Assembly: GCA_003635315.1 (NCBI GenBank)
Contig: PYJD01000041.1
Location: 62,001 to 126,000, forward strand
DNA length: 64,000 nt
Direction: 5' to 3'
From: Candidatus Poribacteria bacterium
Lineage (GTDB): Bacteria > Poribacteria > WGA-4E > WGA-3G
This document shows, piece by piece, positions 21,990 through 60,510 of the stretch; the first letter of the stretch is position 1, and each line of letters starts with the position of its first letter. The translations under genes were made by a program, and so were the position numbers. The notes beneath the pieces were generated by a model. That model did not search any database. It was not told the DNA's origin and saw nothing but the letters and a program-made list of their open reading frames with translations.

Positions 21990-22131
21990 TGAAAAACCGG
22001 AAAATGTTACACTTTTTCCTACATTCTGTAGGATTAATTTTCGGTGAAATTACGGCTTTTAGACCAGTGCTGGACTGGGTTTTGTACCATTGATTAGAAG
22101 AAAGCACAATTATGCATTTTCTTATTTTGTG

Positions 22132-22440
22132 TTATTTCTGTTGTTGTGTTATATTTTCACAATAGTTAATATTGTGTTGGCAATTCTTTTCTTTTTGGAG
22201 ATTATCCGATACAGACATTCGAAATACATTTTCTAAATAGTAATGTCTCATTATTTTAACATAACCTTCTAAGGTGTATCCTATCAGATGACATCCCCAT
22301 AAACCAGCATTGCAGCTTTTTTTCTCAGAAATGGTATAAGTAATGTTGTTTTTAAGATTATTATGAATGTATTGGATAGTCATTTGATAGTTTCCTGTTT
22401 TTATGTAAAAAGTTACGAAATCGTAACTTTTTTCTGTCAC
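22132..22440 (-). CDS. Possible small ORF within repeat element C
   Basis: A 102-codon frame starting at a GTG, with no homologue that I recognise. The first ~40 residues (VTEKSYDFVTFYIK, then MTIQYIHNNLKNN) are conserved in copy B, but there a one-base change breaks the frame. The remainder has several Cys and His residues (CNAGLWGCHLIGY, CQHNINYCEN). Upstream, the same frame is open past a TGA conserved in both copies. It may be a decayed gene whose remnant has been spread with the element. Weak evidence for an expressed protein. Confidence 0.2.
   Translation of the reverse strand: MTEKSYDFVTFYIKTGNYQMTIQYIHNNLKNNITYTISEKKSCNAGLWGCHLIGYTLEGYVKIMRHYYLENVFRMSVSDNLQKEKNCQHNINYCENITQQQK
22407..22432 (-). 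terminator. Conserved 11-bp hairpin with U-tract (copy C)
   Basis: AAAAAGTTACG and CGTAACTTTTT pair perfectly around a 4-base loop. The right arm ends in a T-run in either direction, so it could act as a bidirectional intrinsic terminator. It lies about 230 bases downstream of the conserved promoter. The equivalent in copy B (60055-60080) keeps the stem with one mismatch. Confidence 0.45.
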
Positions 22441-22667
22441 CCCAATTTTAGTGTAGTCGCTATAAAGTCAGTGTTCATATATGTTTACAGCCAATTTACG
22501 ATTTTCTGTAAAAAAAGTAAAAAAGCCTCTATTGATTTCTTATCACATTATTTCTTAATAAGAGGAGTAATATTGAAATTTGTATAGTTGTGTACATTTT
22601 CTTTAATCATAATGATTTATCCAATATTAAGTATTAGTATGCGTATAATAATTATTCTCTATATGTT

Positions 22668-22696
22668 ATTGTAACGTATGTTTACTCTTGTGTCAA
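22668..22696 (-). promoter_or_regulatory. Conserved promoter of repeat element C
   Basis: Minus strand TTGACA (22696-22691), 17 bases, TACAAT (22673-22668). The hexamers and the last 12 spacer bases are identical in copies A and B. Predicted start near 22661. Confidence 0.7.
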
Positions 22697-22833
22697 TGTC
22701 TTTTCGTATATGTGATGTTTGTTTTTTATATTTCTTCAATTTATTTTTAGACTACATAGAAATTATAATGAAAATCTTTGGGGAAGGTATTGAAACTATA
22801 TGATGAAGATTAAGTTTTTCATTCGGTAATATA

Positions 22834-22858
22834 CGGACGGGGAAACCCCGCCCCTACG
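22834..22858. repeat. G/C-rich short palindrome
   Basis: GGACGGGGAAACCCCGCCCC is a strikingly GC-rich island in an AT-rich gap, with GGGG/CCCC arms around AAA. It resembles widely dispersed short palindromes of bacterial intergenic regions. Only this copy is in the window. Confidence 0.4.
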
Positions 22859-23051
22859 ATACTTTTATGTACTGAATTAGCAAAATAATTATTCAATATT
22901 CATAATTATAGTATAAAAAACGATGGCATTTCACATTCCTAATAATTGCTAATAGGATCATTTGCTGCTATAATAGTTCATTGGATTCTGGTTACCTAAT
23001 TAAGTCTATATTTAGATCTCATTTATACATCAACATTACCCAAGGAGAGGA

Positions 23052-24071
23052 ATGAATACAAATGTAAACATAGTTGAAGATGCCTTTTTTATTAATGGAG
23101 AAATCACCTATGCTGGACGTTATTTTGAAGATAAAAAGATAGAAGGTTTACTGCTAAACAGTCGGATGGTACAAGGTATCTTTGATGATAGAAATCCTGA
23201 AACAGTTAGTTTATGGGATTATCCTGATACAGGAAAATGGGATGCTGAACGGAATACAAGAGAATTCTTAGCTGCTATGCCGATATGGCGTGCCTATGGA
23301 ATTTTAGCTTTTACCATTAATCTACAAGGTGGAAGTCCCGAAGGATATTCCAAAAAACAACCTTGGCACAATTCTGGGATCGAAACTGATGGCAGCCTCA
23401 ACCAAGACTATCTATCTCGGTTAAAACGAATAATTGATTTTTCTGACGAATTAGGTATGGTTGTTATTCTTGGGTATTTTTATTTTGGACAAGATCACAG
23501 AATTAAGGACGAGAATACTGTAATACAAGCTGTCGATAATATCACCAATTGGTTGTTTGATAATAACTACACGAATGTAATTATTGAAGTAAATAACGAA
23601 TGTAATGTAAGATACACACATGAGATATTACAACCTGAGAGAGTACATGAATTGATAGAACAAGTTAAATCGAACACCCGAGATGGGAAGAGATACTTAG
23701 TCGGTACGAGTTATGGTGGTGGACGAATTCCGCAGGAGAATGTTGTAGGTTCCTCAGATTTTATCTTAATTCATGGAAATGGTGTCAGTGATCCAAATTG
23801 CATCGTTGAAATGGTAAAACAAACAAGGCAAGTTTCAGGTTATCGACCTATGCCTATACTCTTTAATGAAGATGACCACTTTGATTTCGATAAACCATTC
23901 AACAACTGTGTCGCTGCCATAAGTGAATATGCTTCATGGGGTTATTTTGACCCCGGTGAAAATGACTATTGTCATGGGTATCAATCTGTTCCTGTACAAT
24001 GGCAAATAAACACAGATCGGAAACAGGCTTTCTTTAATAAGATAAAACAGATTACAGGAATTACAGAATAG
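23052..24071 (+). CDS. Cellulase-like (GH5-type) TIM-barrel protein
   Basis: A 339-residue protein with the layout of clan GH-A glycosidases. A strand ending IIEVNNECN places an Asn-Glu pair near residues 182-183 (putative acid/base). A later PILFNEDDH supplies a second Glu near 273 (putative nucleophile). SYGGGRIP, LIHGNGVSD and a closing ASWGYFDPG segment fit other barrel strands. There is no signal peptide. Family number and substrate are uncertain, and it may be a divergent member. An AAGGAGAGGA ribosome site lies immediately before the ATG. The SPFH gene follows after 15 bases on the same strand, so the two are probably co-transcribed. Confidence 0.65.
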   Translation: MNTNVNIVEDAFFINGEITYAGRYFEDKKIEGLLLNSRMVQGIFDDRNPETVSLWDYPDTGKWDAERNTREFLAAMPIWRAYGILAFTINLQGGSPEGYSKKQPWHNSGIETDGSLNQDYLSRLKRIIDFSDELGMVVILGYFYFGQDHRIKDENTVIQAVDNITNWLFDNNYTNVIIEVNNECNVRYTHEILQPERVHELIEQVKSNTRDGKRYLVGTSYGGGRIPQENVVGSSDFILIHGNGVSDPNCIVEMVKQTRQVSGYRPMPILFNEDDHFDFDKPFNNCVAAISEYASWGYFDPGENDYCHGYQSVPVQWQINTDRKQAFFNKIKQITGITE

Positions 24072-24086
24072 AAAGGATATCTAATA

Positions 24087-24869
24087 ATGCCAGAACAAAT
24101 ACCACCATATGTTTTCGCAATTGCAATTGGTGTGGTCGTAATGATCTTAACAAGCGTGAGGATAATGAAGGAATATGAACGGGCAGTTGTCTTTCGATTA
24201 GGACGGCTTGTTGGAACACGTGGTCCTGGTTTTATCTTATTGATACCCTTCTGGATTGAACGGGTTCAACGTGTAAGTTTAAGGGTGATTGTCAACGATG
24301 TCCCTCCCCAGGATATCATAACAAAAGATAATGTATCTGTATCAGTTAATGCTGTCCTCACTTTCAGAGTACAGACTCCTGATAAAGCTGTAATAGAGGT
24401 AGAAGATTTTGGATTTGCTATATCCCAAGTAGCACAAACAACTCTACGGAGTGTACTGGGACGTGCAGAATTGGATGATCTACTTTCCGAACGTGATAAA
24501 CTCAATGAAGATCTAAAAAATATTATTAAGGAACAATGTGATCCATGGGGGATTGAAGTTCATACCATGGAAATTAAACAGGTGGATCTCCCAGCAGAGA
24601 TGCAACGCGCAATGGCAAAACAGGCTGAAGCTGAAAGGGAAAGACGGGCAAAGGTAACACATGCTGAAGGAGAATTTGAGTCTGCCGAGATTCTAACGGA
24701 TGCAGCTGAATTCCTTAGTAAGAAACCTACCGCTGTTCAATTACGATTCCTACAGGCAATGGTTGAGGTGAGCGCGGAGAAAAATTCTACAATTATATTC
24801 CCTATCCCAATTGATCTATTAAGCCCATTTATAAATCAACAAAATAAAAATAAGGATGAAGACAATTAA
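24087..24869 (+). CDS. SPFH/Band 7 (slipin/stomatin-like) membrane protein
   Basis: A 260-residue protein with an N-terminal membrane segment ([20 protein letters not shown]) and a Band 7 domain. Diagnostic stretches are [63 protein letters not shown] and [19 protein letters not shown], in that order. Such proteins form membrane microdomain scaffolds and regulate proteases or channels. Slipins are commonly paired with an NfeD-type protease, which is absent here. The gene follows the cellulase-like gene by 15 bases, with an AAGGAT ribosome site. Confidence 0.92.
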
Positions 24870-24896
24870 TTTGAATGATAGGTCGCAGGAGAGAAA

Positions 24897-25952
24897 CTAC
24901 CAGTCTTCATCATAAAAGGGTGTACTGGGATAACTATATACATTCCCTTCATAATTCTGTAATTGAATTTCTTCGTCATCAAATGTAACAACAGGATTAG
25001 GTGTTAGGGCAATTTTACCACCCCCACCAGGAGCATCAATCACATAGTGTGGTACACCCAGTCCAGATATATGACCCCTCAAGGCTGTCACAATATCCAA
25101 ACCTGTTTGAACTGCGGTACGAAAATGGTCAGTCCCAACAACAAGATCTGCTTGGTAGATGTAATAAGGTCTTACACGAATCCGTAATAAACCTTTCATC
25201 AGTTCAACCATCACTTCTGAATCATCATTCACACCCTTTAGAAGTACTGCCTGATTTCCAAGAGGTATTCCTGCATCTGCCAACATACCACAGGCTTTCT
25301 CCGTTTCTGGTGTAATTTCCCGCGGATGATTAAAATGGGTGTTTATGTAAAATGGATGATATTTCTTTAATATCCCACACAACTCAGGAGTAATTCTCTG
25401 AGGGAGTGTAACCGGTACTCTGGATCCAATACGAATTATCTCTATATGATCAATATTCCGAAGACCATCCACTATCATCTCTATCTTTTTATCTGTCAAC
25501 ATGAGTGGATCACCACCTGAAATTATCACATCTCGAATTTCAGGATGCGATCTAATATAGGACAAACCTATTTCAACATTATCTTCTGAAATAGAATGTG
25601 GATCTCCTACTTTACGTTTTCTTGTACAGAAACGACAATAGATTGGGCACATATAATTCACATAGAAAAGAGCTCTATCAGGATATCGGTGTGTCACATT
25701 TGGAACTTCACTATCATCTTCTTCGTGTAGTGGATCTTCAACACCAGTACTAATTAATTCGCGTGGATCAGGAACTACTTGTTTCCATATAGGATCACCA
25801 GGTTTCTCAATTAAACTAAGATAATAAGGATTAATTCGGATAGGAAATTCTTTGTGTATACGTCTTAGTTCTTCAATGTCCACATCAAAAACTGATGCAA
25901 GTTTCTCAGGTGTATTAACTGTATCTCTAACCAGTTGTTTCCATTCTTCCAT
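24897..25952 (-). CDS. KamA-family radical SAM aminomutase (lysine 2,3-aminomutase/EpmB-like)
   Basis: A 351-residue radical SAM enzyme. The [4Fe-4S] motif CPIYCRFC sits near residue 110 and is followed by TRKRKVGD, as in the family. ISGGDPLMLTD matches the SAM-binding GGDPL. The PLP-binding Lys is expected in DAPGGGGKIAL near residue 318, and DHFRTAVQTGLDIVTALRGH is also family-typical. Possible roles are lysine 2,3-aminomutase (beta-lysine), glutamate 2,3-aminomutase or EpmB for elongation factor P. No epmA or efp gene is adjacent, so I leave the substrate open. It converges on the SPFH gene and has only a distant AAAGG ribosome site. Confidence 0.88.
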   Translation of the reverse strand: MEEWKQLVRDTVNTPEKLASVFDVDIEELRRIHKEFPIRINPYYLSLIEKPGDPIWKQVVPDPRELISTGVEDPLHEEDDSEVPNVTHRYPDRALFYVNYMCPIYCRFCTRKRKVGDPHSISEDNVEIGLSYIRSHPEIRDVIISGGDPLMLTDKKIEMIVDGLRNIDHIEIIRIGSRVPVTLPQRITPELCGILKKYHPFYINTHFNHPREITPETEKACGMLADAGIPLGNQAVLLKGVNDDSEVMVELMKGLLRIRVRPYYIYQADLVVGTDHFRTAVQTGLDIVTALRGHISGLGVPHYVIDAPGGGGKIALTPNPVVTFDDEEIQLQNYEGNVYSYPSTPFYDEDW

Positions 25953-26025
25953 ATTTATAAACCTTTAATCACCATCAATAGAAAATGTTATCAACTCAAA
26001 GTAGGGTCAATTTTTCTCTCTACTT

Positions 26026-26523
26026 CTAACATTTAACACCTTCTCGAAGTTTATCAACAATATCAATTCCATCTATGACTCTACCAAATGTGGTGTAATT
26101 TCCATCCAAATGGGTATATCCGTTTGTATTTTCATTTAGGCAAATATAGAATTGACTACCCGCAGAATCTGGAGTTGGTTTTCTTGCCATTGCAATAACA
26201 CCTTTTTCATGGTTAGGCATTTTATCTCGTAAAGTCTTATCCTGAAATTCACCCGGAATAGTCCAACCTGGTCCACCGGTTCCATTACCATCAGGATCAC
26301 CACCCTGAATTACGAAATTTTTTACATAACGATGAAAAAGTAAACCATTATAAAAGCCTGAATCGACTAATTTTAGGAAATTCGCTACGGTAAGTGGAGC
26401 ACACTCTGGATACAGTTCAATAATTATGTTTCCTTTGTCAGTTTTTAGCGTTACAATAGGTAATTTATCAACAGTTTCTGAATATACCAGTGTTAGATAT
26501 TTAAACAAAGTTGAAATTGGCAT
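26026..26523 (-). CDS. Cyclophilin-type peptidyl-prolyl cis-trans isomerase
   Basis: A 165-residue single-domain cyclophilin that speeds prolyl isomerisation during folding. The core begins at VTLKTDKGNIIIELYPECAP. It continues with GLLFHRYVKNFVIQGGDPDGNGTGG, which includes the catalytic Arg in FHR and the following IQGGD. It ends with GSQFYICLNENTNGYTHLDGNYTTFGRVIDG. There is no signal peptide, so it is cytoplasmic. The ~20 residues before the core are atypical. An internal start cannot be excluded, but AAGGAA precedes the first ATG. It lies 73 bases downstream of nothing on its strand and shares direction with the kamA-like gene. Confidence 0.93.
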   Translation of the reverse strand: MPISTLFKYLTLVYSETVDKLPIVTLKTDKGNIIIELYPECAPLTVANFLKLVDSGFYNGLLFHRYVKNFVIQGGDPDGNGTGGPGWTIPGEFQDKTLRDKMPNHEKGVIAMARKPTPDSAGSQFYICLNENTNGYTHLDGNYTTFGRVIDGIDIVDKLREGVKC

Positions 26524-26760
26524 TGAATTCCTTAATTACATTGATTATTCGAGAATAGGGATCTGGATGGGAAATAATACTATTTTGAAAATCAATATTT
26601 TCTTATGTCAACATTAAAATTGGTTATAATGACTACCAAATACTGATTTAATGATACATCTGAATAGTAGTTAAGTCAAGAATTTCTAAAATCTCTCAGG
26701 GTTATTTAGCTTTCTAAATTTCCAATAAACCCTATCTATTCCGTTATTGATTATATAGGT

Positions 26761-26791
26761 CTTTAGTCCTATCGGGACGGAATGTTTATAG
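26761..26791 (+). repeat. Copy of the GTCC-GGGAC dispersed repeat
   Basis: CTTTAGTCCTATCGGGACGG followed by AATGTTTATAG. It matches 16803-16833 (minus strand) and both arms of 16714-16777. It lies in the gap between the cyclophilin gene and disA, about 110 bases from repeat element A. Confidence 0.7.
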
Positions 26792-26898
26792 AAAAAATAT
26801 GATCCGCCTCTATTCTGTAGCCGAAAATCCAATAACGTCATAAAGAAGCATATTTTCGAAGTTTACCCCATAAGGCAGCAATTCTGGATATAGATGGC

Positions 26899-27497
26899 AA
26901 AATAAATTGAAGAAATTTAAACAATCAAACATCACATATATTAAAAGAGTTGACAGAATAGTAAACATACGTTACAATAACATATAGAGAATAAATATAA
27001 TACTCATACTAATATATTTATTGTAGGATAAAACAAAAGATTATTGAATATATACGGATATACAAATCACAATAATATAACACATACTTATTCGGCAATT
27101 AAGGTATCCATTAAGAGAACTTTTTAAATATAAAATTAGAGAAATAAATGATGACTATCTGCAAAAACGATCCTAAATACAAGAAAATATTTACGTCAAA
27201 AAATCGACATTATTTACCGGTTGGAATTGTCTAATTCTGAAAGGACACAAGAAACACAAAATCACACTTTTTGGAAATTCTTATAAAGTCAGTTCAAAGT
27301 GGCGTAAAGTCAGTCTATGACAGCGGTTAGAGGGGTAATTTAGACCAATTTCAATGACACACAATGTGTCAAAAAGTGTAACTTTCTTCACTTTTTCGAT
27401 GCATGGAGAAATTCCATATTTTCACGATTTATCATCAGGGAATTTAGGATTAAAAGTCTGTTTTTGCACCTTATTTGGTTGTCGTATATTAGGATTA
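26899..27497 (+). mobile_element. Mosaic repeat element, copy A
   Basis: The reverse complement of 27100-27497 matches 59572-59972, and 26899-27050 matches the right end of copies B and C. The element is therefore inverted relative to them and lacks their middle section. In the direction of its promoter (26950-26978) it holds a decayed two-frame coding stretch starting near 27148 (MMTICKNDPKYKKIF), then the covarying hairpin 27356-27370. It ends about 25 bases before the disA promoter. No transposase, target duplication or terminal inverted repeat could be recognised. Confidence 0.65.
26950..26978 (+). promoter_or_regulatory. Conserved promoter of repeat element A
   Basis: TTGACA (26950-26955), 17 bases, TACAAT (26973-26978), reading into the element and towards disA. 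Predicted start near 26986. Hexamers and most of the spacer are identical to copies B and C. Confidence 0.7.
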
Positions 27498-27522
27498 AAC
27501 ACCCTCATATAATTACAATGCA

Positions 27523-27551
27523 TTGACAATCGCAATTTTGTATGTTACACT
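27523..27551 (+). promoter_or_regulatory. Promoter of disA
   Basis: TTGACA (27523-27528), 17 bases, TACACT (27546-27551). Predicted transcription start about 27558, only 12 bases before the GTG at 27570, with no good Shine-Dalgarno site between (only GATGGGG next to the start). It lies just outside the end of repeat element A. Confidence 0.6.
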
Positions 27552-27569
27552 TTAAAAAATATTGATGGG

Positions 27570-28679
27570 GTGATTAAACTGCGTAATTTCAATTTAATAA
27601 AGCTAAAAGAAAACGATTTTGATAAAACTCTAAAATTAGTTTCTCCTGGGACATCTTTAAGAGAAGGAATTGATTATATAATTCAAGGTAAGAATGGAGG
27701 ATTAATTGTTATAGGTGATACACCTGAAGTTCTAAATTTAACTGAAGGTGGTTTCAGAATAAATTGCCAATTTAGTCCAACACAATTGGCTGAACTTGCC
27801 AAAATGGACGGAGCAATTATCCTTTCTTCCGACATGAAGAGAATTGTTCGAGCGAATGTAACATTAAGAATTAATCCTTCGATTTCATCTAATGAAACTG
27901 GTCTACGGCACAAAGCTGCTGAGAAATTCTCTAAGGATACAGGTCAGATAGTTCTCGCTGTTTCCCGACGACGCAATACGTTAACTTTGTATTCTCAGAC
28001 TCAGAGATATCAATTCAGGGATCGTACAATACTATTATCAGGTGCTAATCAGGCTTTCTTATCACTTAGTCTTTATATAAAGGCTATGCAGAATTCCGCT
28101 TCTTCTTTAAATTGGGCTGAATTAAACGATAGTGTCACCTTAGAAAATGTAGTCACCGCAATTTGCGATTGTGAACGTGTAAGACGTACTGAAGAGGAAC
28201 TGAACAGATATAGAATAGAATTAGGAACTGAAGCACAATCACTACATTTAGTTCCATCTGATTTGACCCAAGAAATTGATCGTGGATTGTTATCAATTAA
28301 GGATTATTATATACAAGATATTCATGAAGAGAATGAAGTATATGAAAAGATATTTGGTTTAGATGCATCTCAATTGACTTCAAAATCAGAAATAATTAAT
28401 GCACTTGGTTTTTCAAATTTAGATTTATCTGATAATTACGCTTTTGAACCCCGTGGATATCGAATGCTCAGTCAGATACCACACATTTCTATGAAGGTTG
28501 TTGAGAGAATTGTCGATCATTTTAAATCTCTGTATTCCATCCGTACAGCCAATATAGATGAATTACAAAATGTAGATGGAATTGGAGAAACACGGGCATT
28601 GGCAATTAAAGAATCACTTACACAAATGAAAACAGGGGCATCCCAACCTACAATAATGACGTTACCGGTATTTGAATAA
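27570..28679 (+). CDS. disA: DNA integrity scanning diadenylate cyclase
   Basis: Makes cyclic di-AMP from two ATP and scans DNA for branched structures. The DAC domain carries DGA at residues 80-82 and GLRHKAAEK near 111-119. The canonical motif is RHRTAE, so the third residue is Lys here and the fourth Ala. The linker is followed by a C-terminal helix-hairpin-helix region (LSQIPHISMKVVERIVDHF, then LQNVDGIGETRALAIKESL). At 369 residues it has full family length. The start is GTG with a weak ribosome site and a close promoter. It heads a long same-strand series. No c-di-AMP phosphodiesterase is in the window. Confidence 0.93.
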   Translation: MIKLRNFNLIKLKENDFDKTLKLVSPGTSLREGIDYIIQGKNGGLIVIGDTPEVLNLTEGGFRINCQFSPTQLAELAKMDGAIILSSDMKRIVRANVTLRINPSISSNETGLRHKAAEKFSKDTGQIVLAVSRRRNTLTLYSQTQRYQFRDRTILLSGANQAFLSLSLYIKAMQNSASSLNWAELNDSVTLENVVTAICDCERVRRTEEELNRYRIELGTEAQSLHLVPSDLTQEIDRGLLSIKDYYIQDIHEENEVYEKIFGLDASQLTSKSEIINALGFSNLDLSDNYAFEPRGYRMLSQIPHISMKVVERIVDHFKSLYSIRTANIDELQNVDGIGETRALAIKESLTQMKTGASQPTIMTLPVFE

Positions 28680-28800
28680 CATACATTTTTCTTGGTAAGG
28701 ATTATTCATCTGGAATATAGGCAATTTAAATTAAATGTTGATTCTACTGGATAAAGAATATGAAATGTCAATATAGAGAATATAGGAGCATAGAGGCAAA

Positions 28801-30150
28801 ATGAAAAGATCAAACACATCTGTAATAAAGCAAGAGAAATTCCAAATCCAAATGAATTCTAACAGAATATTTCTTTTAGGATGTATTTTGTTTGGTATCG
28901 TTCTAATGGGTTGTGGCGGAAAACTTGGAAAAGTTGAAATAGTCGATGTACAGAATGCTATTACACAGGCAGAAAAAGCAATAAATGATGCTCTTGATGT
29001 AAAAGCAGATTCACTCGCTTTTGAACAATTTGAAAGGGCTGAAACTGAACTTGAAAAGTCAAAAGAGGCATTAAAAAACAAAGAGGGTATTCCTGCATTA
29101 AGATTTGCAAATCTCGCATATTCACATGCAAGAATGGCGAAATATGAAGCAATTCAAAATTCTAAAAATGCTGTTGCCTATGGAAATCTCTTAGCAAAAG
29201 ATGCAGTAATTGTTGAATTAAAGGGTGATCTGGAGAATCAAAATAACAAAATCAAAGATCTGGAAAAAGGATTACAATCATTAGAGAATACTGAGAGAAA
29301 TCTAAACAATTCCATCACAACTCTCAATAATGAAAAGCAAGAAATTGTTCGCAAGAACAGACTTAATGTTGATAGGTTATCCGAAGTTAATGATGAACTG
29401 AAAACTCTACAAAACCGTATTACACAGTCTGAGACTGAAGTGCGGAATTATGGAAATGAAGTCAAAGATCTAACACGAAAACTTGAGGCAGCCGATGCAA
29501 TTGCACAATCAGCAAGTCGGCAAAAAAGAACAGCTTATGCAGAGGTGGAATCACTCAAAAAACAAATTCGTGAACAAGCTAAGAATTATACTACCAAACT
29601 TGCTGAAGCTCAAAAACGAAATATTGCTGTTGAACATTCTGAGTATCTAAAAAAGCAAGCTGAGGAAGCCAGAGAGTATGTTCGACAACTCGATAGTCAG
29701 AAACCTGTTCGCACTGGAAGAACTACTCTATCCACACAACAAATCAATGGTGGGAAAGCTGCATTAAAACGTTGGGAAAATGAATGGAGTCGTAAAAATA
29801 TAAAAGCACACCTTGCTTTTTATTCTCCAAATGTAGTAATAAATAAAGTCCATACGGTGGAAAGTAAAGAGAATCCATCTAAGTTAAATAGAAACCAGTT
29901 TGAATCTGAACTAAACGATATGAGTAAACATCCTTGGCAAAAGACCCAAGAAAAAGATCTGTTTGAAGTGGAACAGAATAGTGTAATTGGTACATATCGG
30001 TATAGTAGATTGGTTACTCCAGCATTAACTGAGGATGATACAGCCTTGTATCAGATATGGATCCGAGAAATCTGGGCACATCAGATTCAGAATGAATGGA
30101 AAATATATCGTGAAACTTGGCAGATATTTGAAAATATACCAAAATTCTAA
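28801..30150 (+). CDS. Coiled-coil lipoprotein with an NTF2-like C-terminal domain
   Basis: A 449-residue exported protein. A hydrophobic signal segment ends at a lipobox LMGC near residue 40. The signal is preceded by a 17-residue extension, so translation may instead begin at the ATG at 28852. Residues ~50-120 form a helical DUF4398-like segment (AITQAEKAINDALDVKADSLAFEQFERAE). Residues ~125-300 are a long coiled coil with heptad Leu/Ile. From ~310 a SnoaL/NTF2-like domain begins (AALKRWENEWSRKNIKAHLAFYSPNV). Such lipoproteins are thought to act at the envelope, but no function is known. The next gene carries three more domains of the same kind. Confidence 0.7.
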   Translation: MKRSNTSVIKQEKFQIQMNSNRIFLLGCILFGIVLMGCGGKLGKVEIVDVQNAITQAEKAINDALDVKADSLAFEQFERAETELEKSKEALKNKEGIPALRFANLAYSHARMAKYEAIQNSKNAVAYGNLLAKDAVIVELKGDLENQNNKIKDLEKGLQSLENTERNLNNSITTLNNEKQEIVRKNRLNVDRLSEVNDELKTLQNRITQSETEVRNYGNEVKDLTRKLEAADAIAQSASRQKRTAYAEVESLKKQIREQAKNYTTKLAEAQKRNIAVEHSEYLKKQAEEAREYVRQLDSQKPVRTGRTTLSTQQINGGKAALKRWENEWSRKNIKAHLAFYSPNVVINKVHTVESKENPSKLNRNQFESELNDMSKHPWQKTQEKDLFEVEQNSVIGTYRYSRLVTPALTEDDTALYQIWIREIWAHQIQNEWKIYRETWQIFENIPKF

Positions 30151-30161
30151 GGAGAGGGTTG

Positions 30162-31577: not shown

Positions 31578-31669
31578 CAAGTCCTAAATGTGCACATTTT
31601 GAATGGTAATACAAAGCTACTAACGACTGAATTGAATGTATTGACCTGAATATTCATTGTATAATTTAT

Positions 31670-32080: not shown

Positions 32081-32119
32081 ATGGACATCAGGTTGTAATA
32101 GATTCATTTTTCCATTTCT

Positions 32120-50276: not shown

Positions 50277-52361
50277 CTAATTTATGTTGGTTACCATATA
50301 TTTAAGTATAGTTCCATACTGCCCAGCAACAAATCCATTACTTGAATTATACATATGTATCGAAGTTAAATCCGTTCGAGTATCTGTCCGTTGAGGTCTC
50401 CAGCTTTTTCCACTATCTTTTGAATGAAGAACTATACCATCTTTACCTACTATCCACCCTTCAGATTTAGAAATAAAATGTACATCATATAGGAAATTAT
50501 CTGTATTACTTTGTTGTCGATACCAACTTACTCCGTTGTCGTTAGTATGGAATACCGTTCCATTTTCACCAACGACCCATCCGTAAGACATGTCAAAAAA
50601 ATATACAGCATTGAACCAGATATTACTGTTTTCACTCAATTCAGAAAGGCGTTGGCTTAATTTCGATGTCTTCCAATGTTTTCCACTATCAGTTGTGTGT
50701 AGAAGCGTGCCGAAAATGCCTGTAACCCATCCTTCAAATCGTGATGTAAAATGTATATCGAAGAGATTAGAGGATACCCCACTATTTTGTGTCTCCCAAG
50801 TTAGTCCACCATTTTTAGTATGTAGTATTTCTCCACCACTACCAGCACACCATCCTGTCAATTCATCAATAAAAAAGACAGTAAGTAGATCCTGATTACT
50901 GTTGGATGTCTGCTTTTCCCACACCACACCACCATTTGTTGTATGAAGAATCACACCTGCTTCAGCTACTGCCCACCCTTCATCAGGTGTTATAAAAAAA
51001 GTTCCACCAAAACATTCTGGGGTACGACTATCCTGAGACTTCCATTCAGCCCCACTATCGTTAGTTTGGAGTATAGTTCCTCTATCTCCAACAACATAAA
51101 CCATAGCTTCAGATACGGTACAAATATCAAATAATAAATGTGTTGGATTGGATTGAGACTCCCATGTTACACCACCATTTCGTGTATGTAGAATAGTTCC
51201 GTTCTCACCAACAACCCAACCATTTTTATTTGATATAAAATCCAAACCTAATAACAACCCGTCGGCACTGTTATGAAATCGTGGACCACCTCGTTGATGT
51301 TTCCATTTCCTTACGTTATCTTTATCAATCTCAAAAGTAGAATGTAGAATTACTCCTAAATCTCCAACGATCCACCCATTTTCATTATCAAAAAAGTCTA
51401 CATTATATAATGTAAATGTATGTAATGGTTCATTTCCAAGATATTCTGGTTGTCCATACTCCGTCCTATGTCTTGTATTACTTCCCTGTGCAATGTCTAT
51501 CCAATTTTTTCCACCATCTGAAGTAGAATATATTGCCCGTTTGTCACCAACAACATAGCCTATGTTCCTATCAATGAAGTGTAATCCAAAAAGGGCACGG
51601 TCAGTTTTAAGCTGATTTAACCATGTTTTGCCACCATCAATGGTATGAAATATATTACCTGGATGATCTATATCTTCAGGATTACTTGATGTTATAATCC
51701 AACCTTGGAATTGATCTATAAAATGTACTGCTTTTAAAGACTCTTTCTGTATTGAGTTCGATTCATATATCTGAAATGAATTCCCTCCGTCTGTGGTTTT
51801 TAGCAGTGTACCCCAATCTCCAACAATCCATCCTGTCTCTTCATCTATGTAAATACCATTTAGGTTAGATTTTGTATTTGATTGAATTCTTTTCCAGTTT
51901 TCCCCACCATCGGTCGTGTGAATTATTGTACCATCTTCACCAATACACCAACCAATCTCTAGTGATTTAAAAAACACTTTTTTTAGGGGTTTTCCAAAAA
52001 TACCACTATGTTGTATTTTCCATTCTTCACCACCATTCAGCGTATGGAGAATAATACTTTCTGTTTCATCAGAAAAAGAGTTTTCTTCATCAATTGAGAG
52101 ATTGTATATATCGTGTCGTGGCGTAATTCCAACTGAATTGCCAACAACCCACCCCTCTTTTTCAGATATAAAGAACACATCGTAAAGATGTGCACTCCAA
52201 TCTCCTTTTAAGACAGTTTTCCATTCGCCTCTTACATTCTTATGAGTATTAGAACAACCAACAATTAATAACAAACAGCATAAATTGACCAGCAATATAG
52301 AAAGATGTAATAGATTAGTGTGCCTGTTTTTATTGATTCTCAAAAAGGACTTCGCTGACAT
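50277..52361 (-). CDS. YCF48/BNR-repeat lipoprotein
   Basis: A 694-residue exported propeller. I start at the ATG at 52361, with AGAGG nine bases upstream. An ATG at 52382 would overlap dapB further. The signal segment ends at LLLIVGC, a lipobox near residue 36. The mature part holds about ten repeats of the form G(W/I)..G..G(T/V)(I/L)LHT.(N/D)GG..W, as in the photosystem II assembly factor YCF48 and other BNR-like propellers. The repeats are extracytoplasmic. No photosynthesis genes are nearby, so a role in photosystem assembly is not suggested. It overlaps the 3' end of dapB by 32 bases on the same strand, so the two are translationally coupled. Confidence 0.83.
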   Translation of the reverse strand: MSAKSFLRINKNRHTNLLHLSILLVNLCCLLLIVGCSNTHKNVRGEWKTVLKGDWSAHLYDVFFISEKEGWVVGNSVGITPRHDIYNLSIDEENSFSDETESIILHTLNGGEEWKIQHSGIFGKPLKKVFFKSLEIGWCIGEDGTIIHTTDGGENWKRIQSNTKSNLNGIYIDEETGWIVGDWGTLLKTTDGGNSFQIYESNSIQKESLKAVHFIDQFQGWIITSSNPEDIDHPGNIFHTIDGGKTWLNQLKTDRALFGLHFIDRNIGYVVGDKRAIYSTSDGGKNWIDIAQGSNTRHRTEYGQPEYLGNEPLHTFTLYNVDFFDNENGWIVGDLGVILHSTFEIDKDNVRKWKHQRGGPRFHNSADGLLLGLDFISNKNGWVVGENGTILHTRNGGVTWESQSNPTHLLFDICTVSEAMVYVVGDRGTILQTNDSGAEWKSQDSRTPECFGGTFFITPDEGWAVAEAGVILHTTNGGVVWEKQTSNSNQDLLTVFFIDELTGWCAGSGGEILHTKNGGLTWETQNSGVSSNLFDIHFTSRFEGWVTGIFGTLLHTTDSGKHWKTSKLSQRLSELSENSNIWFNAVYFFDMSYGWVVGENGTVFHTNDNGVSWYRQQSNTDNFLYDVHFISKSEGWIVGKDGIVLHSKDSGKSWRPQRTDTRTDLTSIHMYNSSNGFVAGQYGTILKYMVTNIN

Positions 52362-53136
52362 CGTGTAATCCTCTTGAGGCATTTACAACCCATCTTGCTG
52401 CCCGTATTGCACCTTTTGCAAAAGCTTCGGGACTGTGGGCACGATGAACAACACTTAATGTTTCTCCTTCTGTAGCAAACATAACAGTATGATCACCAGC
52501 TATATCGCCGCCACGAATTGCGTGTATACCTATCTGTTTATGTGGGCGCGCGCCAACAATACCATGTCGTCCATACACACCTACCTCTGATAAATCCCTA
52601 TCCAGTGCATTTGCGACAGTTTCAGCCAATCTTAACGCAGTACCACTTGGAGAATCTGCTTTGTGGTTGTGATGTGCTTCAATCACCTCAATATCATAGT
52701 CATCACCCAATGCCTTCGCAACCAATTCTAACGCTTGTATCATGACATTAATACCCAGACTCATGTTGGGAGCCATTACGCACCTAATCTTTGAGGCTAA
52801 TTCTTGAACTGTGGTTTGTTCATCAGGACTAAATCCTGTGGTAGCAATTACCATTGCTTTGTCAGCATCTACAACCTGCCGTAGGTGTTTGATTGTAACA
52901 TCGGGTTTAGAGAATTCGATGATAACATCTGACGAATCAATTACATTTCTTAGATCATCAGAAATAGGAACTCCGATTTCATTGATTCCTGCTATCACAC
53001 CTGCATCACTTCCAAGATTTGGATGTCCAGGAAATTCAATTGCACCGACTATTTCCATATCTTCCTGTACTGATACCCCTTGGATAATTAATCTACCCAT
53101 TCTACCACATGCGCCGTTAATAACTACATTTACCAT
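52330..53136 (-). CDS. dapB: 4-Hydroxy-tetrahydrodipicolinate reductase
   Basis: NAD(P)H-dependent step of lysine and diaminopimelate biosynthesis. The 268-residue chain has the Rossmann opening INGACGRMGRLIIQGV and IIEFSKPDVTIKHL. The catalytic EAHHNHKADSPSGTALRLAE lies near residue 155, with the active-site His-His and Lys. GRHGIVGARPHKQIGIHAIRGGDIAGDHTVMFA follows. The family start is clear. It acts just upstream of DapL in the same pathway. No dapA, dapF or lysA is in the window. The gene's 3' end overlaps the following lipoprotein gene. Confidence 0.96.
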   Translation of the reverse strand: MVNVVINGACGRMGRLIIQGVSVQEDMEIVGAIEFPGHPNLGSDAGVIAGINEIGVPISDDLRNVIDSSDVIIEFSKPDVTIKHLRQVVDADKAMVIATTGFSPDEQTTVQELASKIRCVMAPNMSLGINVMIQALELVAKALGDDYDIEVIEAHHNHKADSPSGTALRLAETVANALDRDLSEVGVYGRHGIVGARPHKQIGIHAIRGGDIAGDHTVMFATEGETLSVVHRAHSPEAFAKGAIRAARWVVNASRGLHDVSEVLFENQ

Positions 53137-53462
53137 TGTCTTGTCCTATACAAACGTAAATTATATCCATTTGAATTGTGTGTTAAGGTCACAATCTCTA
53201 TATATTTTATGTACTTATTCAGTATATCACAAAGGACTTAAAACAACAACAAAACTAACAGATACATTGACGAATTTTGGATTCTTCTGAGTGATTCCTA
53301 AACGCGACTTAACACTATTGTTCCGGTATCAGATTTCTATACTACAAAGACCTAAAGACAGTAAATTACATCAAATCAATTAAAGGGATGGAATAACCTG
53401 ATAATTATCAGTAGTTCATATAAATCTGGATATCCATTTTACAAACAATTGTGTGAGGTATA
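53137..53462. other. Intergenic gap between lipA and dapB
   Basis: About 325 bases without a credible ORF. On the minus strand a TATAAT box (53165-53160) lies 24 bases before the dapB ATG, with TTAACA as a poor -35 at 15 bases spacing. A dapB promoter is possible but weak. Nothing else is recognised. Confidence 0.4.
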
Positions 53463-54365
53463 CTACACCAATTTTGTACTTCTTGCTTGTTCACCAGCGT
53501 GATATGAGCTACGAACCAGAGGACCAGATTCTACATGTTGGAATCCCATTGTCAATCCTGTTTCTTTAAGTTCATCAAATTCATCTGGGGTGTAGTATCG
53601 ATGTATCGGTAAGTGTTGTGAGGAAGGTGAGAGATATTGTCCAATAGTTAGTATATCACATCCAGTATTACATATATCCTGCATAGTTTCGAGTAGTTCG
53701 ACAACTGTTTCTCCTAATCCAACCATCAAACCTGATTTTGTTAGCATTTCTGGTTTGATTTCTTTACTCCTTTTTAAGAGAGTTAGAGATTGTTGGTAAT
53801 CTGCATGTGGACGTGCACGTCGATAAAGTCTTTGGACTGTTTCAGTATTATGATTGAGTATTTCAGGTTTAGCATCAATTATGATGTTTAAGGCATCCCA
53901 ATTACCTTCAAGATCTGGTATCAATACCTCAATAGTACAACTTGGTCGTTTTTCTCGGGCAGTTTTTATGCATTCAGCAAAAATACTTGCCCCACCATCT
54001 TGTAAATCATCTCTGTTAACAGATGTAATGACGACATGATTGAGCATTAAATATTCGACTGCTTCACCAAGTCTCCGTGGTTCATCAGAATCAACGACAC
54101 CCTCCGGTTTACCTTTCTGCACTGCACAGAACATGCAACGACGTGTACAAATATCCCCTAAGATCATGAATGTCGCTGTTCGGCTATTCCAACATTCACC
54201 AATATTTGGACAACGTGCTTCTTCACAAACTGTGTGGAGTTGTAAATCACGCATTAAGCTTTTTAACTCAGTATAGTTTTCACCACTTGGTATTCGAGCT
54301 TTAATCCATGATGGATGTCTTCTAATTGGTGTGTTTGATTCAATAATTGGAAGGCTTTTATCCAT
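53463..54365 (-). CDS. lipA: Lipoyl synthase
   Basis: A 300-residue radical SAM enzyme that inserts two sulfurs into octanoyl chains on lipoyl-dependent enzymes. Both cluster sites are visible: the auxiliary cluster Cys set in CEEARCPNIGECW near residue 42, and the SAM cluster CTRRCMFC near 73. Family stretches ATFMILGDICTRRC, VVITSVNRDDLQDGGA, NHNTETVQRLYRRARPHADY and KSGLMVGLGET fit. No lipB is in the window. It has no ribosome site before the ATG. It is the first gene transcribed leftward from the tRNA-Sec side. Confidence 0.96.
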   Translation of the reverse strand: MDKSLPIIESNTPIRRHPSWIKARIPSGENYTELKSLMRDLQLHTVCEEARCPNIGECWNSRTATFMILGDICTRRCMFCAVQKGKPEGVVDSDEPRRLGEAVEYLMLNHVVITSVNRDDLQDGGASIFAECIKTAREKRPSCTIEVLIPDLEGNWDALNIIIDAKPEILNHNTETVQRLYRRARPHADYQQSLTLLKRSKEIKPEMLTKSGLMVGLGETVVELLETMQDICNTGCDILTIGQYLSPSSQHLPIHRYYTPDEFDELKETGLTMGFQHVESGPLVRSSYHAGEQARSTKLV

Positions 54366-54450
54366 TATAAATATTGATATTTTTCTAAGTATGAATTCTT
54401 ATACCATTCTAAATGAATAGTTTTCTTGAAAACACATATATAATCTATTC

Positions 54451-54471
54451 GGAGCGATTCCAAACCGCTTC
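54451..54471 (+). repeat. Copy of the GGAGCG hairpin repeat
   Basis: GGAGCGATTCCAAACCGCTTC, with GGAGCG and CGCTTC arms (one G-U pair). Related to 16877-16897 and 60802-60840. It lies just 3' of the tRNA-Sec gene in the lipA upstream gap. Confidence 0.5.
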
Positions 54472-54497
54472 AACTGGGGTTGGTGGATGTTGTTTAA

Positions 54498-54591
54498 TGG
54501 CGGGAGAGGGTGGGAATCGAACCCACCTATCCACTTGCATGGACAAGCCGGTTTTGAAGACCGGTAGAGACACCAGACCCTATCCTCCCCC
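54498..54591 (-). tRNA. selC: Selenocysteine tRNA, UCA anticodon
   Basis: Read on the minus strand, 94 bases including an encoded CCA end (54500-54498). The acceptor is 8 base pairs (GGGGGAGG with CCTCTCCC, one G-U pair), longer than the usual seven. The anticodon stem CCGGT/ACCGG encloses CTTCAAA with anticodon TCA. A long variable arm has a 5-bp stem (TGTCC/GGATA). The T-arm GTGGG TTCGATT CCCAC gives the bacterial 8+5 architecture. The D-stem is six pairs with one mismatch. It follows selB by 18 bases, so it is probably processed from a shared transcript. This supplies the selenocysteine charged on UGA. Confidence 0.95.
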
Positions 54592-54609
54592 ATATATAAT
54601 AGATAGAAA

Positions 54610-56544
54610 TCAACTTAGTCTTGTAGACAATCTCCTAACATTACCATCTCTGACTGTAATATTCTGAGTGTCACAATACTCAAGAAAAGGAACTGCATAT
54701 TTTCTGGATGTTTGTCCCAATTCACGAAATTCTCCGACAGAAATCGTATCATTATTAACCAAGTATTCTTTTAGTGTTTCTACAGTCTCATCAAAAACTT
54801 TCCTGTGAATAAAGTAATTATCGGCTATTTTGATGAAGTATCCAAGATTCAATAAGGCGTAGAATGTAGATTCAACCAGATCGGGATTATATTCTGAGAG
54901 TTGTATCTTTAATTCATTCAATGCGGGTGTATTAATTCCTGCGTCGATTAATAATTTTTCTAAAGTTTCTTTTGCAATGGACTCTTCTTCGGTGAATTGT
55001 ATTTGGTGTGATGCCAATCTTATGAGATTACCATCTTTAATTACACGATCAAGGGTTATCATTTTATCAATTATTTTCTCAAAACCGATTTCGTCAACAG
55101 ATATATCCTTACATAATTGGGCAGCGTTTTGACCAGTCAATAATGGCTGTTGTTGATGAAATAGTTCAAGAACTGAAATCAGTTTTTCTTCAATATTAGC
55201 AGTGCGTTTAGCATCAGAAACGAGTGGGGTTTTACCTGAAACATCCCATCTGACAATTTTACCTTCTGACTCCAAATTTTCTAATATATCTCTAACTTCC
55301 GTCTGTGAATAGGGTAAATAATAGTATAGAAAAGATTCCTCAATGCATAATGACTTACTGGTCTCTAAAATGGCAGTCACTACAGATTCGTCATTTGCTT
55401 CTTCCCATTGTGCTAAGATAGAAATAGTCTCTTGAGTAAAGCGTTTATGCTTTGGTGCAAATGGGTTTATGACTTCTCCTCCGCCAACAGTATATTGTGC
55501 AGAGAAATCTCGAAGTATAATTCGGTCCCCACGGAATGTTAGAATTGGTTGTTCTAAACGGAGTTGTACTTGGACTGTATCTCCAGGAAGAATTGCCTCG
55601 TCAACCAATAGAATCATTCTACAGAATATCTCACGCGTACCCAGATATACTCTGAACCGACTCCAATGTTCTATCATTTTTGGATATGAGGTGAGGACTT
55701 GTAATGATATATCAATATTATCAGTAGCACGCGAAAATTCTACTGGACACAATACATCTCCTCGCTGAATTTCATTTGCAGATGTACCAGATAAGTTCAA
55801 TGCAGTTCTTTGTCCTGCTTGGGCAACATTAGCGGGTTCATTATGTACTTGAATACCACGTACTCTTACTTCATTCCCTTGTGGTAAAATCACCATTCTT
55901 TGATCCCGATTAACTACACCACCTATCAAAGTTCCAGTAACAACTACCCCAAAACCTTGAACAGTAAATACCCGATCAATATATAAACGTGGAATTCCAT
56001 TATGGTCTTGTTTCTTTGAAACTTGATTAACCTGTTCAACAATCATCTGCTTAAGTTTGTCTATTCCCTGCCCAGTGATTGATGAGACACTTACAGATGG
56101 AATACCTTCAAGTGACGTACCAACTAACATTTCCTGTGTCATTTCAGTTGCATCGGTCAATTCCTCAGGTGTAGCTAAATCCGATTTAGTCATTACAAGA
56201 ATACCATTGGAGATTCCGATTAAATCTAATATAGCCAGATGTTCAAGTGTTTGCTCTTGTACTCCCTCCTTAGCATCCACGACAAATAATACAATATCCA
56301 TCCCATAAGCTCCTGATAACATATTTCGGATGAATTTCTCATGTCCTGGAACATCAACAATTCCAGCTCTGGAACTATCAGGTAGATCGAAATAGGCAAA
56401 TCCCAATTCAATAGATAAACCTCTTTCACGTTCTTCTTTTAATCTATCGGTCTCTATACCAGTAAGAGTTCCTACTAATGCCGTTTTGCCGTGATCAACG
56501 TGTCCAGCGGTACCGATGATGAGATGTCTATTTGCTTTATCCAT
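54610..56544 (-). CDS. selB: Selenocysteine-specific elongation factor
   Basis: A 644-residue GTPase that brings selenocysteyl-tRNA to UGA at a SECIS hairpin. The G domain starts with GTAGHVDHGKTALVGTLTG and continues with ERERGLSIELGFAYF, VDVPGHEKFIRNM and MTKSDL. EF-Tu-like domains follow (FTVQGFGVVVTGTL), and from about residue 380 the C-terminal winged-helix domains that bind SECIS RNA (CRMILLVDEA, AQLCKDISVDEI, FLEYCDTQNITVRDG). It directly neighbours the tRNA-Sec gene. Its ATG overlaps the lepB stop by one base (TGATG), so they are translationally coupled. No selA, selD or selenoprotein is in the window. Confidence 0.96.
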   Translation of the reverse strand: MDKANRHLIIGTAGHVDHGKTALVGTLTGIETDRLKEERERGLSIELGFAYFDLPDSSRAGIVDVPGHEKFIRNMLSGAYGMDIVLFVVDAKEGVQEQTLEHLAILDLIGISNGILVMTKSDLATPEELTDATEMTQEMLVGTSLEGIPSVSVSSITGQGIDKLKQMIVEQVNQVSKKQDHNGIPRLYIDRVFTVQGFGVVVTGTLIGGVVNRDQRMVILPQGNEVRVRGIQVHNEPANVAQAGQRTALNLSGTSANEIQRGDVLCPVEFSRATDNIDISLQVLTSYPKMIEHWSRFRVYLGTREIFCRMILLVDEAILPGDTVQVQLRLEQPILTFRGDRIILRDFSAQYTVGGGEVINPFAPKHKRFTQETISILAQWEEANDESVVTAILETSKSLCIEESFLYYYLPYSQTEVRDILENLESEGKIVRWDVSGKTPLVSDAKRTANIEEKLISVLELFHQQQPLLTGQNAAQLCKDISVDEIGFEKIIDKMITLDRVIKDGNLIRLASHQIQFTEEESIAKETLEKLLIDAGINTPALNELKIQLSEYNPDLVESTFYALLNLGYFIKIADNYFIHRKVFDETVETLKEYLVNNDTISVGEFRELGQTSRKYAVPFLEYCDTQNITVRDGNVRRLSTRLS

Positions 56545-57323
56545 CAGTCTTGTATATGTTCTGTATTTATCATTTTACCGATTCGATTATAACGAATTCT
56601 ACCAAGAATCTTCCATAATTCCCATATTTTAATTCCTTTACCATTATATGACCAATACACCATAAAAGCTTGTCCTTTAATTCTGTTTACTTCCACAGGT
56701 CCCCATGTTCGACTATCGCTACTCTGGTCTCGATTATCTCCCATGGCAAAAACCATCCCTTTAGGTACAACATATGGATTCCCTTCTGGGAATCTCCTTT
56801 TGAATTGATTTTCTGAGAGTGTGAAGTCCTTGAAGGTTTCATTATTGTACATGTATGGCGGAGGTAAACGAAAGGGTGGAAAGTTTCCCCTTCTTCTAAA
56901 ATGTGATTCTAAATGCTTTGTATATTCACTATCTTCTACTGCAATACCATTGACATAGAGTGTTTTACCATTTGTATAAACAGAATCCCCTTCTACTGCT
57001 ACAATACGTTTGATGAAATTCCTATTTGTTTCATGTGGAGGTATAAAAACAAAGACATCTCCCCGTGTAGGTTTATGGAAATCAAAAACTCTGATATCTG
57101 TTCCTGGAATCTTTATACCATAAATGAATTTACATACCAAGATACGATCCCCAACTAAAAGCGTATCTTCCATTGAACCTGAAGGAATCTTAAATGCCTC
57201 TACAACGAATGGACGTATAAACCCAAATACCAGTATTAGGGCAACAACAATTACTTGTGTATATTCCCATACTATGGTGTTGCGAAATTTCTGCCATTTT
57301 GACTTTTGTTCTTCAGTATTCAT
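56544..57323 (-). CDS. lepB: Signal peptidase I
   Basis: A 259-residue membrane protease that removes signal peptides. A membrane anchor lies at residues ~19-40 (YTQVIVVALILVFGFIRPF). The catalytic Ser is in IPSGSMEDTL (near residue 49) and the Lys is in FIKRIVAVEGDSV (near 112). GDNRDQSSDSRTWGPV near 194 is the family signature. A 60-residue insertion with FRRRGNFPPFRLPPPYMYN separates the last two blocks. It is coupled to selB by a one-base overlap, which is a conserved-looking but functionally unrelated operon partner. No ribosome site before its ATG. Confidence 0.95.
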   Translation of the reverse strand: MNTEEQKSKWQKFRNTIVWEYTQVIVVALILVFGFIRPFVVEAFKIPSGSMEDTLLVGDRILVCKFIYGIKIPGTDIRVFDFHKPTRGDVFVFIPPHETNRNFIKRIVAVEGDSVYTNGKTLYVNGIAVEDSEYTKHLESHFRRRGNFPPFRLPPPYMYNNETFKDFTLSENQFKRRFPEGNPYVVPKGMVFAMGDNRDQSSDSRTWGPVEVNRIKGQAFMVYWSYNGKGIKIWELWKILGRIRYNRIGKMINTEHIQD

Positions 57324-57484
57324 TCAATTCAACTATCATCAATACCCGATGATTACCCTTTCTGATTAATATAAATTTAAATGATCAATACAACCTAATT
57401 ATAAATTGATTTCTATGTATGTATGTTGGATATCCCTTATTTTAATGTGGTTACATATCGTAATATTAATGTATATAGGTAGAT

Positions 57485-59290
<1,806 letters not shown>

Positions 59291-59571
59291 GATATTAAAG
59301 TATACTACAAATAGGGTCATAATTCCATTAAAAGATAGCAGTGATGAGGTTAATATTAATTGTGAATTTCTCATATTAATAATGACATATTATTACACAG
59401 AGTTCAATTCTTATACATACTTTTATCTTAAACCATTTCTAAGAAATGATGATGTATTACAGGTTTATTTCGGATGTTATCCGATACTGCATAACCTAAA
59501 GGTGATGATAGAAAAATGAGATATTTTCATTTAGATATTGTATTAAAACTCATAGTCGTAAATTTGACTTT
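59291..59571. other. Gap upstream of lepA
   Basis: AT-rich, with no ORF that I trust, no clear ribosome site and no recognised repeat until element B begins at about 59572. Confidence 0.35.
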
Positions 59572-59698
59572 TAATCCTAATATACGACAACTTAATAAGG
59601 TGCAAAAACAGACCTTTAATCCTAAATTCCCTGTTGATAAATCGTGAAAATGTTGATTTTCTCCAAGCGTTGAAAAAGTGAAAAAAGTTACACTTTTT

Positions 59699-59713
59699 GA
59701 CACATTCTGTGTC
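59699..59713 (-). other. Covarying short hairpin in element B
   Basis: GACACA-TTC-TGTGTC, followed on the minus strand by AAAAAGTGTAAC. Copy C has CCTACA-TTC-TGTAGG (22018-22032) and copy A GACACA-CAA-TGTGTC (27356-27370, plus). The outer three pairs of the stem differ in C, yet all pair. Confidence 0.55.
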
Positions 59714-59738
59714 ATTGAAATTGGTGTAAATTACCTCT

Positions 59739-59921
59739 CTAACCTCTGTCATAGCCTGACTTTACGCCACTTTGAATTGACTTTATAAGAATTTCTAAAA
59801 AATGTGATTTTGTGTTTTTTGTGTCCTTACGGATTTTGACAATTCCAAATGGAGAATAATGTCGATTTTTTGACATAAATATTTTTTTGTATTTAGGATC
59901 GTTTTTGTATATAGTCATCAT
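59739..59921 (-). pseudogene. Small ORF of the repeat element (intact here, broken in copy A)
   Basis: A 60-codon frame beginning MMTIYKNDPKYKKIFMSKN and ending in a basic SGVKSGYDRG. The same frame is readable in copy A from 27148 with few changes, but two stops follow GIV there. An overlapping downstream frame (59752-59543) is also similar between copies. I recognise no family. The frame conservation indicates that an ancestor was coding. Neither copy has a ribosome site, so current expression is doubtful. Confidence 0.3.
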
Positions 59922-60054
59922 TTGTTTTTGTTTTATATTTATTAAGTTCTCTTAATGGATACCTTAATTGCAGAATTAGATGGTATAAGTTATGTTGTTT
60001 TTAAGATTATAATGAATGTATTGGATAGTCATTTCATAGTTTGCTGTTTTATGT

Positions 60055-60080
60055 AAAATGTTACGAAATCGTAACTTTTT
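60055..60080 (-). terminator. Conserved hairpin with T-run (copy B)
   Basis: GTTACG (60060-60065) and CGTAAC (60070-60075) around a 4-base loop, extended by A/T pairs with one mismatch and a T-run. Counterpart of 22407-22432 in copy C. About 240 bases downstream of the element promoter. Confidence 0.4.
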
Positions 60081-60317
60081 TCTGTCACCCCAATTTTAGC
60101 ATAGTCTCTATAAAGTCAGTGTTCATATATGTTTACAGCCATTTTACGAATTTCTAATAAAAAAATAAAAAGTTCTCTTAATGGATTTCATAACGCATTA
60201 TTTCTTAATAAGATGTGGGAGATTGACATTTGTATAACTGTGTGTATTCTCTATAATCATATTGATTTATCCAATATTAAGTATTAGTATGTGTATAATA
60301 ATTATTCTCTATATGTT

Positions 60318-60346
60318 ATTGTAACGTATGTTTACGTTGGTGTCAA
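60318..60346 (-). promoter_or_regulatory. Conserved promoter of repeat element B
   Basis: Minus strand TTGACA (60346-60341), 17 bases, TACAAT (60323-60318), reading leftward into the element. Predicted start near 60311. Confidence 0.7.
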
Positions 60347-60510
60347 TCTCTTTTCGTATATGTGATGTCTGTTTTTTAAATTTCTTCAATTTATTTTTAA
60401 AACTACGTAGAAATTACTAACGATAATAATCTTGTTTTTTCTGGTTGTAGGTGCGGTTTCCTAACCTCACTTGCCGAGATGGATCGCGTTAATTTCGTAT
60501 AAGAACAGTG

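Follow-up and report, generated by a model that had tools for sequence, protein, structure and literature searches.

Three related stretches of mostly non-coding DNA, here called copies A, B and C, lie in a 64-kb window (the whole stretch of DNA analyzed) of the 4.33-Mb, 50-contig draft genome of a poribacterium (genome label G000), which belongs to a sponge-associated type of bacteria. The three are copies of a large non-coding element family that four genomes of a single Poribacteria genus share, and the strongest feature of this family is its near-fixed orientation toward gene starts. Copy B lies between a cyclophilin gene (26026-26523, minus strand) and disA (27570-28679, plus strand), and copy C lies upstream of lepA (57485-59374, minus strand). 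An earlier, sequence-only reading had reported that the three share extended, almost identical stretches in either orientation. Pairwise comparison of the copies at about 21990-22764, 26899-27499, and 59570-60418 bore this out, with blocks of 49-358 nt at 86-94% identity. Copies B and C share inverted blocks of 358 nt (91%) and 49 nt (92%), copies A and C share direct blocks of 240, 132, and 71 nt (86, 90, and 94%, respectively), and an inverted 65-nt block is common to A and B (92%) and to B and C (89%). The promoter that the same reading had placed in all three copies was also recovered, by eye (Table 1).

Table 1. Positions in the window of copies A, B, and C and of the features within or next to them
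Feature	Position	Strand	Description
Copy A	about 21907-22764, ends approximate	+	Hybrid of type I left module, MITE-like insert (about 22190-22330), V hairpin, and P right module
Core of A	22006-22035	+	GTTACACTTTTT, palindrome CCTACA-TTC-TGTAGG, ATT; core model match, 92.3 bits (21992-22095)
V hairpin of A	22407-22432		AAAAAGTTACGA-AA-TCGTAACTTTTT; 12-nt arms, 100% complementary; bidirectional terminator-like by eye
Promoter P of A	22668-22696	-	TTGACA-17-TACAAT; conserved in family
Copy B	about 26904-27499	-	Type III left module and P right module
Promoter P of B	26950-26978	+	TTGACA-17-TACAAT; reads toward disA
Core of B	27353-27382	-	Palindrome GACACA-TTG-TGTGTC; core model match, 109.7 bits (27293-27396)
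Direct repeats of B, internal and terminal	27444-27499	-	TTAGGATTAAA in gene direction; type III gene-facing end
Promoter-like site of disA	27523-27551	+	TTGACA-17-TACACT; neighbor outside element B; kept in G011
Copy C	59570-60412, right end approximate	+	Hybrid of type III left module, V hairpin, and P right module
Core of C	59687-59716	+	Palindrome GACACA-TTC-TGTGTC; core model match, 113.1 bits (59673-59776)
Promoter P of C	60318-60346	-	TTGACA-17-TACAAT; reads through element toward lepA

A core pattern, consisting of GTTACACTTTTT, then a palindrome, then ATT, with up to 3 mismatches allowed, occurred at 146 places in G000 and at 1 place for the backward control, and the family is therefore both real and large. 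With copy C as the query, at least 68 matches were found in the same genome, where 40 of 174 first-look candidates were scored. The copies are mutually divergent, with 82-91% identity to long parts of C and with different flanks. A core model of 104 positions, built from 52 stretches of G000 and of a congener, G011, was searched in 18 congeners (E values up to 0.01; 150 candidates scored per genome), giving 145 matches in G000, 97 in G011, and 7 each in G007 and G013; no match was obtained in 14 of the 18. The suggestion of a multicopy family thus gained further copies in the genome as well as matches in its relatives. As is typical of dispersed intergenic repeats, many similar non-coding copies lie between genes, and their presence varies between relatives. 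From 146 cores in the genome and 17 intergenic gaps longer than 100 bp in the 64-kb window, we estimate that about 1 in 8 such gaps holds an element. The core pattern was absent from the viral contigs searched and copy C had no match in phages and plasmids, leaving a phage or plasmid origin unsupported, and no description of this family was found in the open-licence literature of PubMed Central. Chance or an assembly artefact has a negligible probability. The genome is a draft, but no support for an artefact was found, and the explanation is refuted by the excess of cores over the control and by the recurrence in three other genomes of copies that differ from each other and in their flanks.

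The copies are mosaics, in which a left module with the core (type I, II, III, or a minor type IV) is joined to interchangeable right modules, namely V, a palindromic hairpin (AAAAAGTTACGA/TCGTAACTTTTT), P, a promoter, and Q; the element bodies span about 350-850 bp. For 104 copies in G000, a similarity rule that pooled type IV with type I gave these joints: II+V+P (25 copies), III with none of V, P, or Q (19), III+Q (15), I+V (12), III+P (9), II+V (8), I alone (8), I+V+P (2), III+V+P (2), and III+V+P+Q (2), while 2 copies were untyped. Copy A is one of the two I+V+P copies, the other (L078) being of type IV by eye, and copy C is one of the two III+V+P copies, with two more that score for Q too. 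Copy B belongs to the regular III+P class. The sequence-only notion that B combines an A-type and a C-type part is therefore reversed, as it is A and C that are the rare hybrids. The gene-facing end of type III carries two direct repeats of approximately AAAAACAGAC-N-TTTAATCCTAA, about 45 nt apart.

The orientation of the elements relative to their neighboring genes was counted with a simple open reading frame (ORF) caller (at least 110 amino acids), and ORFs lying mostly inside an element were dropped. In nearly all copies of both G000 and G011, it is the left side of the core that is turned toward a gene start. Among 126 distinct copies in G000, the left gene faced the element in 110 and did not in 9, with no left gene in 7; among 54 copies in G011, the corresponding counts were 49, 1, and 4. 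In gaps between co-directional genes, the left gene faced the element or not in ratios of 51:4 in G000 and 10:0 in G011 (binomial P values of 1e-11 and 1e-3, respectively), and the bias was seen in types I, II, and III. Divergent versus convergent placement was dropped as evidence, because convergent gaps longer than 100 bp are rare in general (0 of 17 in the window and 2 of 27 on the G011 contig). Among the 104 copies of G000 in which P was scored, co-directional gaps gave 14:2 when P was present and 27:2 when it was absent; because the bias holds in copies lacking P, orientation is independent of the promoter, and P is ruled out as its cause. These findings suggest that direction results either from targeted insertion or from selection for an effect on genes.

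Turnover of the elements was visible in the comparison with G011, in which contig C203 is syntenic with positions 4307-59339 of the window. At the site of copy B, G011 has about 80 nt against about 825 nt in the window, and element B is absent. The TTGACA-17-TACACT site before disA, about 20 bp past the end of element B, is present in both species. G011 carries an element pair of its own where the window has none, and its gap matching copy A holds an element that resembles type IV and points in the usual direction. Upstream of a gene that we take from its sequence to be rpsB, an element lies beyond a conserved promoter-like site in both species, and it is of type II in G000 and of type III in G011. 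Such placements could be produced by selfish elements with targeted one-way insertion, whose machinery would recognize promoter regions (bound RNA polymerase or AT-rich upstream DNA) with no benefit to the gene. In line with this, the bias is alike with and without P and recurs across the three types, at disA (G000) and rpsB (G011) a conserved -35-like site follows the element end by about 20-40 bp, and the two species can have different types, assigned partly by eye, ahead of one and the same gene. However, type III borders stand anywhere from 21 to about 400 bp from the best promoter, no linked enzyme was found in the Y1 family searched, and the conserved core palindrome and P would need another cause. 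We therefore regard targeted insertion without benefit as unlikely, although it retains a substantial share of the probability.

Module P was present in 40 of the 104 typed copies by the similarity rule, and a separate scan found 36 P-like copies among 120 G000 loci. The description of the elements as promoter-bearing thus holds for A, B, and C but not for the family as a whole. P itself is well conserved (n = 36), with TTGACA in 34, TACAAT in 31, and the 17-bp spacer in 34 copies. Some elements lie upstream of what is predicted to be the neighboring gene's own promoter: of 43 type III copies that had a usable gap next to a left gene, 12 showed, between element and gene, a sigma70-like site with no more than 2 mismatches, versus 2.2 expected from mononucleotide shuffles. 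This result bears on whether the element is the 5' leader of the downstream gene, a riboswitch or attenuator transcribed with the gene from P. P does read through the element toward the gene, and at one locus (L085) the gap is 52 bp and the best site in it has 6 mismatches, as a leader would allow. A leader is nevertheless very improbable, since a good promoter-like site stands between element and start codon in those 12 type III copies, the disA site is kept in G011 without the element, and the orientation bias persists without P.

The sequence-only reading had offered two identities for the family, mobile elements or a multicopy RNA locus. The first is upheld, in that the family is dispersed, non-coding, and mobile, as judged from the number of cores, the mosaics, and the empty B site; the second is not. 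As small-RNA genes, the copies would yield either a plus-strand RNA of about 100 nt from near the core or an RNA of about 250 nt from P to the V hairpin. In favor of this, P is conserved, the arms of the V hairpin pair perfectly over 12 bp in at least 37 of 54 cases, and type II (10/33 versus 3.0 expected) as well as G007 and G013 (8/19 versus 1.1) show an excess of sigma70-like sites on the plus strand ahead of the core. Consensus folds were also more stable than column-shuffled ones on both strands, in type III (-59 and -62 versus -26 to -41) and in G007/G013 (-42 and -54 versus -7 to -35). On the other hand, there was no plus-strand enrichment in type III (0/47 versus 2.3), type I (1/22 versus 1.4), or G011 (0/54 versus 3.6), and P is missing from 64 of the 104 copies. 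Outside the core palindrome, none of types I, II, and III showed convincing covariation, and for type II the palindrome pair itself was not among the top scores, being outranked by poorly aligned edge columns. No Rfam family matched: with Rfam 15, the window matched only tRNA-Sec above the gathering score, and 10 element loci searched at E values up to 1 gave two weak small nucleolar RNA matches (E values of 0.26 and 0.5), judged to be chance, and one CRISPR repeat away from the core. A small-RNA identity is accordingly improbable. The tRNA-Sec match is a selenocysteine tRNA gene at 54498-54591 (minus strand) of the window. A G011 locus (L240:105-471) contains six regularly spaced matches to Rfam CRISPR-DR2 just under the cutoff.

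Protein coding was ruled out on the basis of codon phase, which gave no signal, and of indels, which are mainly of 1 nt, rather than by scanning the element ORFs against protein families; the earlier description of the copies as mostly non-coding therefore stands. Some type II copies, such as L012, L018, and L020, have minus-strand open frames of 146-197 amino acids across the element with no codon-phase conservation, a length that calls for an explanation in such AT-rich DNA.

The core of the left module spans about 100 bp and comprises GTTACACTTTTT, the palindrome, and a second motif near CTGTCATAGACTG. Over the six palindrome pairs in 101 G000 copies, 589 of 606 were Watson-Crick pairs, 1 was G-T, 2 were A-C, and 14 were others. 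The arms change as a set, with GACACA/TGTGTC in 61 and CCTACA/TGTAGG in 24 of these copies, and GTCACA/TGTGAC in 9 of 18 G011 stretches. G011 also has many additional copies with CCTACA/TGTAGG. G007 and G013 retain the flanking GTTACACTTT and the second motif but have an A/T palindrome in place of the usual one. Taken by itself, the palindrome is compatible with an operator, a hairpin in single-stranded DNA, or an RNA hairpin. The second motif, approximately CTGTCATAGACTGNGTTTA, follows the palindrome at a spacing that is 10 nt longer in types I and III than in types II and IV, and insertions of 10-11 nt recur in type III (31). Because this step is about one helical turn, it hints at a protein that may bind double-stranded DNA. 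A 5-bp hairpin at the second motif was rejected, as it is not kept across types (481 Watson-Crick, 67 G-T, 21 A-C, and 216 other pairs, from copies that are not independent). In G007 and G013 (L191-L210), a second hairpin stands beside the core; its arms occur in two versions, AAATGTTTTC..GAAAACATTT and AAATGTTACC..GGTAACATTT, which are mixed in some cases.

The reading that we favor, and to which we assign an even chance of being correct, is that of a cis-acting, mobile, non-autonomous upstream element whose direction is kept. Copies would be spread by an enzyme acting in trans, recombination among copies would create the mosaics, and orientation would be maintained because the core acts in cis on the neighboring promoter. 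The core may work as an operator, an insulator, or a transcription-control site, read either as DNA or as its transcript, and P and the V hairpin would then be optional promoter and terminator cargo. A bolder version, which we consider doubtful, is a portable, direction-locked control cassette, in which the palindrome allele (GACACA, CCTACA, or GTCACA type) would be an interchangeable address for a host factor and module swaps would rewire many promoters at once. Bacterial repeats of high copy number are commonly portrayed as insertions that the host tolerates or that donate a promoter by chance. If true, a near-fixed and promoter-independent direction in two species would imply either that integration is directed at promoters or that a cis effect is widely selected for.

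Several observations weigh against a mobile, direction-kept element. Regarding mobility, no mobilizing enzyme was found in the one family searched (Y1), no convincing pair of terminal inverted repeats joins the ends of A, B, or C, element ends vary among copies, and no target-site duplication was seen at B relative to the empty G011 site, where the flanks have diverged. Six G011 loci have a neighboring gene orthologous (at least 60% identity) to the neighbor of a G000 element, but because the elements are dense, this number is about what we estimate that chance would give. Regarding direction, nine of the counted G000 copies are exceptions to the rule, and copy A, which lies between plus-strand genes at 20085-20948 (laminin-G-like domain) and 23052-24071, also breaks it, as became visible from its neighbors in the window and not from its 3-kb locus. 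Of the 19 cores in G007 and G013, 10 had a left gene that faced the element and 5 had one that did not, and for the right gene these counts were 16 and 1; their co-directional gaps (0:3) were of the opposite sense, a difference that was not significant and involved too few cases to weigh. Finally, the gap counts are not fully independent, because several loci hold two cores, and orientation was counted for the element family alone, without an unrelated-repeat control.

Among known systems, the Correia elements of Neisseria, which are miniature inverted-repeat transposable elements (MITEs), are present in more than 120 copies, mostly immediately upstream of genes, carry sigma70-like promoters, and are mobile, according to the portion of PMC10969869 consulted. 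The present family is likewise high copy, upstream of genes, equipped with sigma70-like promoters, and mobile. Correia elements, however, carry terminal inverted repeats, whereas the longest near-end inverted pair in C is 25 nt at 72%, and the present family differs further in its nearly fixed, P-independent facing direction and in the length of its bodies. With the REP/BIME sequences and their RAYT enzymes, as far as described in the part of PMC2817692 consulted, it shares an intergenic location, a high copy number, a composite mosaic build, and palindromes that complementary changes preserve. Unlike in that system, there is one core per module rather than inverted pairs, and no significant core lies within about 1.5 kb of the four Y1-type genes found in G000 (best match, 19.7 bits; E value, 0.12), leaving RAYT mobilization unsupported. 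Pneumococcal BOX, RUP, and SPRITE repeats (consulted part of PMC3049150) are similarly modular, dispersed, and RNA-foldable, and SPRITE is terminator-like; those repeats are over-represented between convergent genes, whereas the present family lies before gene starts in one direction. No comparable direction rule appears in the consulted portions of these three reports. The family is thus placed among the dispersed intergenic repeats and not with the REP/RAYT systems or, because convincing terminal inverted repeats are lacking, with the MITEs. Many of the elements adjoin or enclose a separate repeat that is MITE-like, measures about 140 bp, and has imperfect ends (TTATACCATTTCTAA, by eye), as at about 22190-22340 of the window and in the flank of C near 59460-59560. 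At L016 and L094, a tandem array of a unit like AGCACAATCTAACAGAATGTGCTACAAACACG lies to the right of the element.

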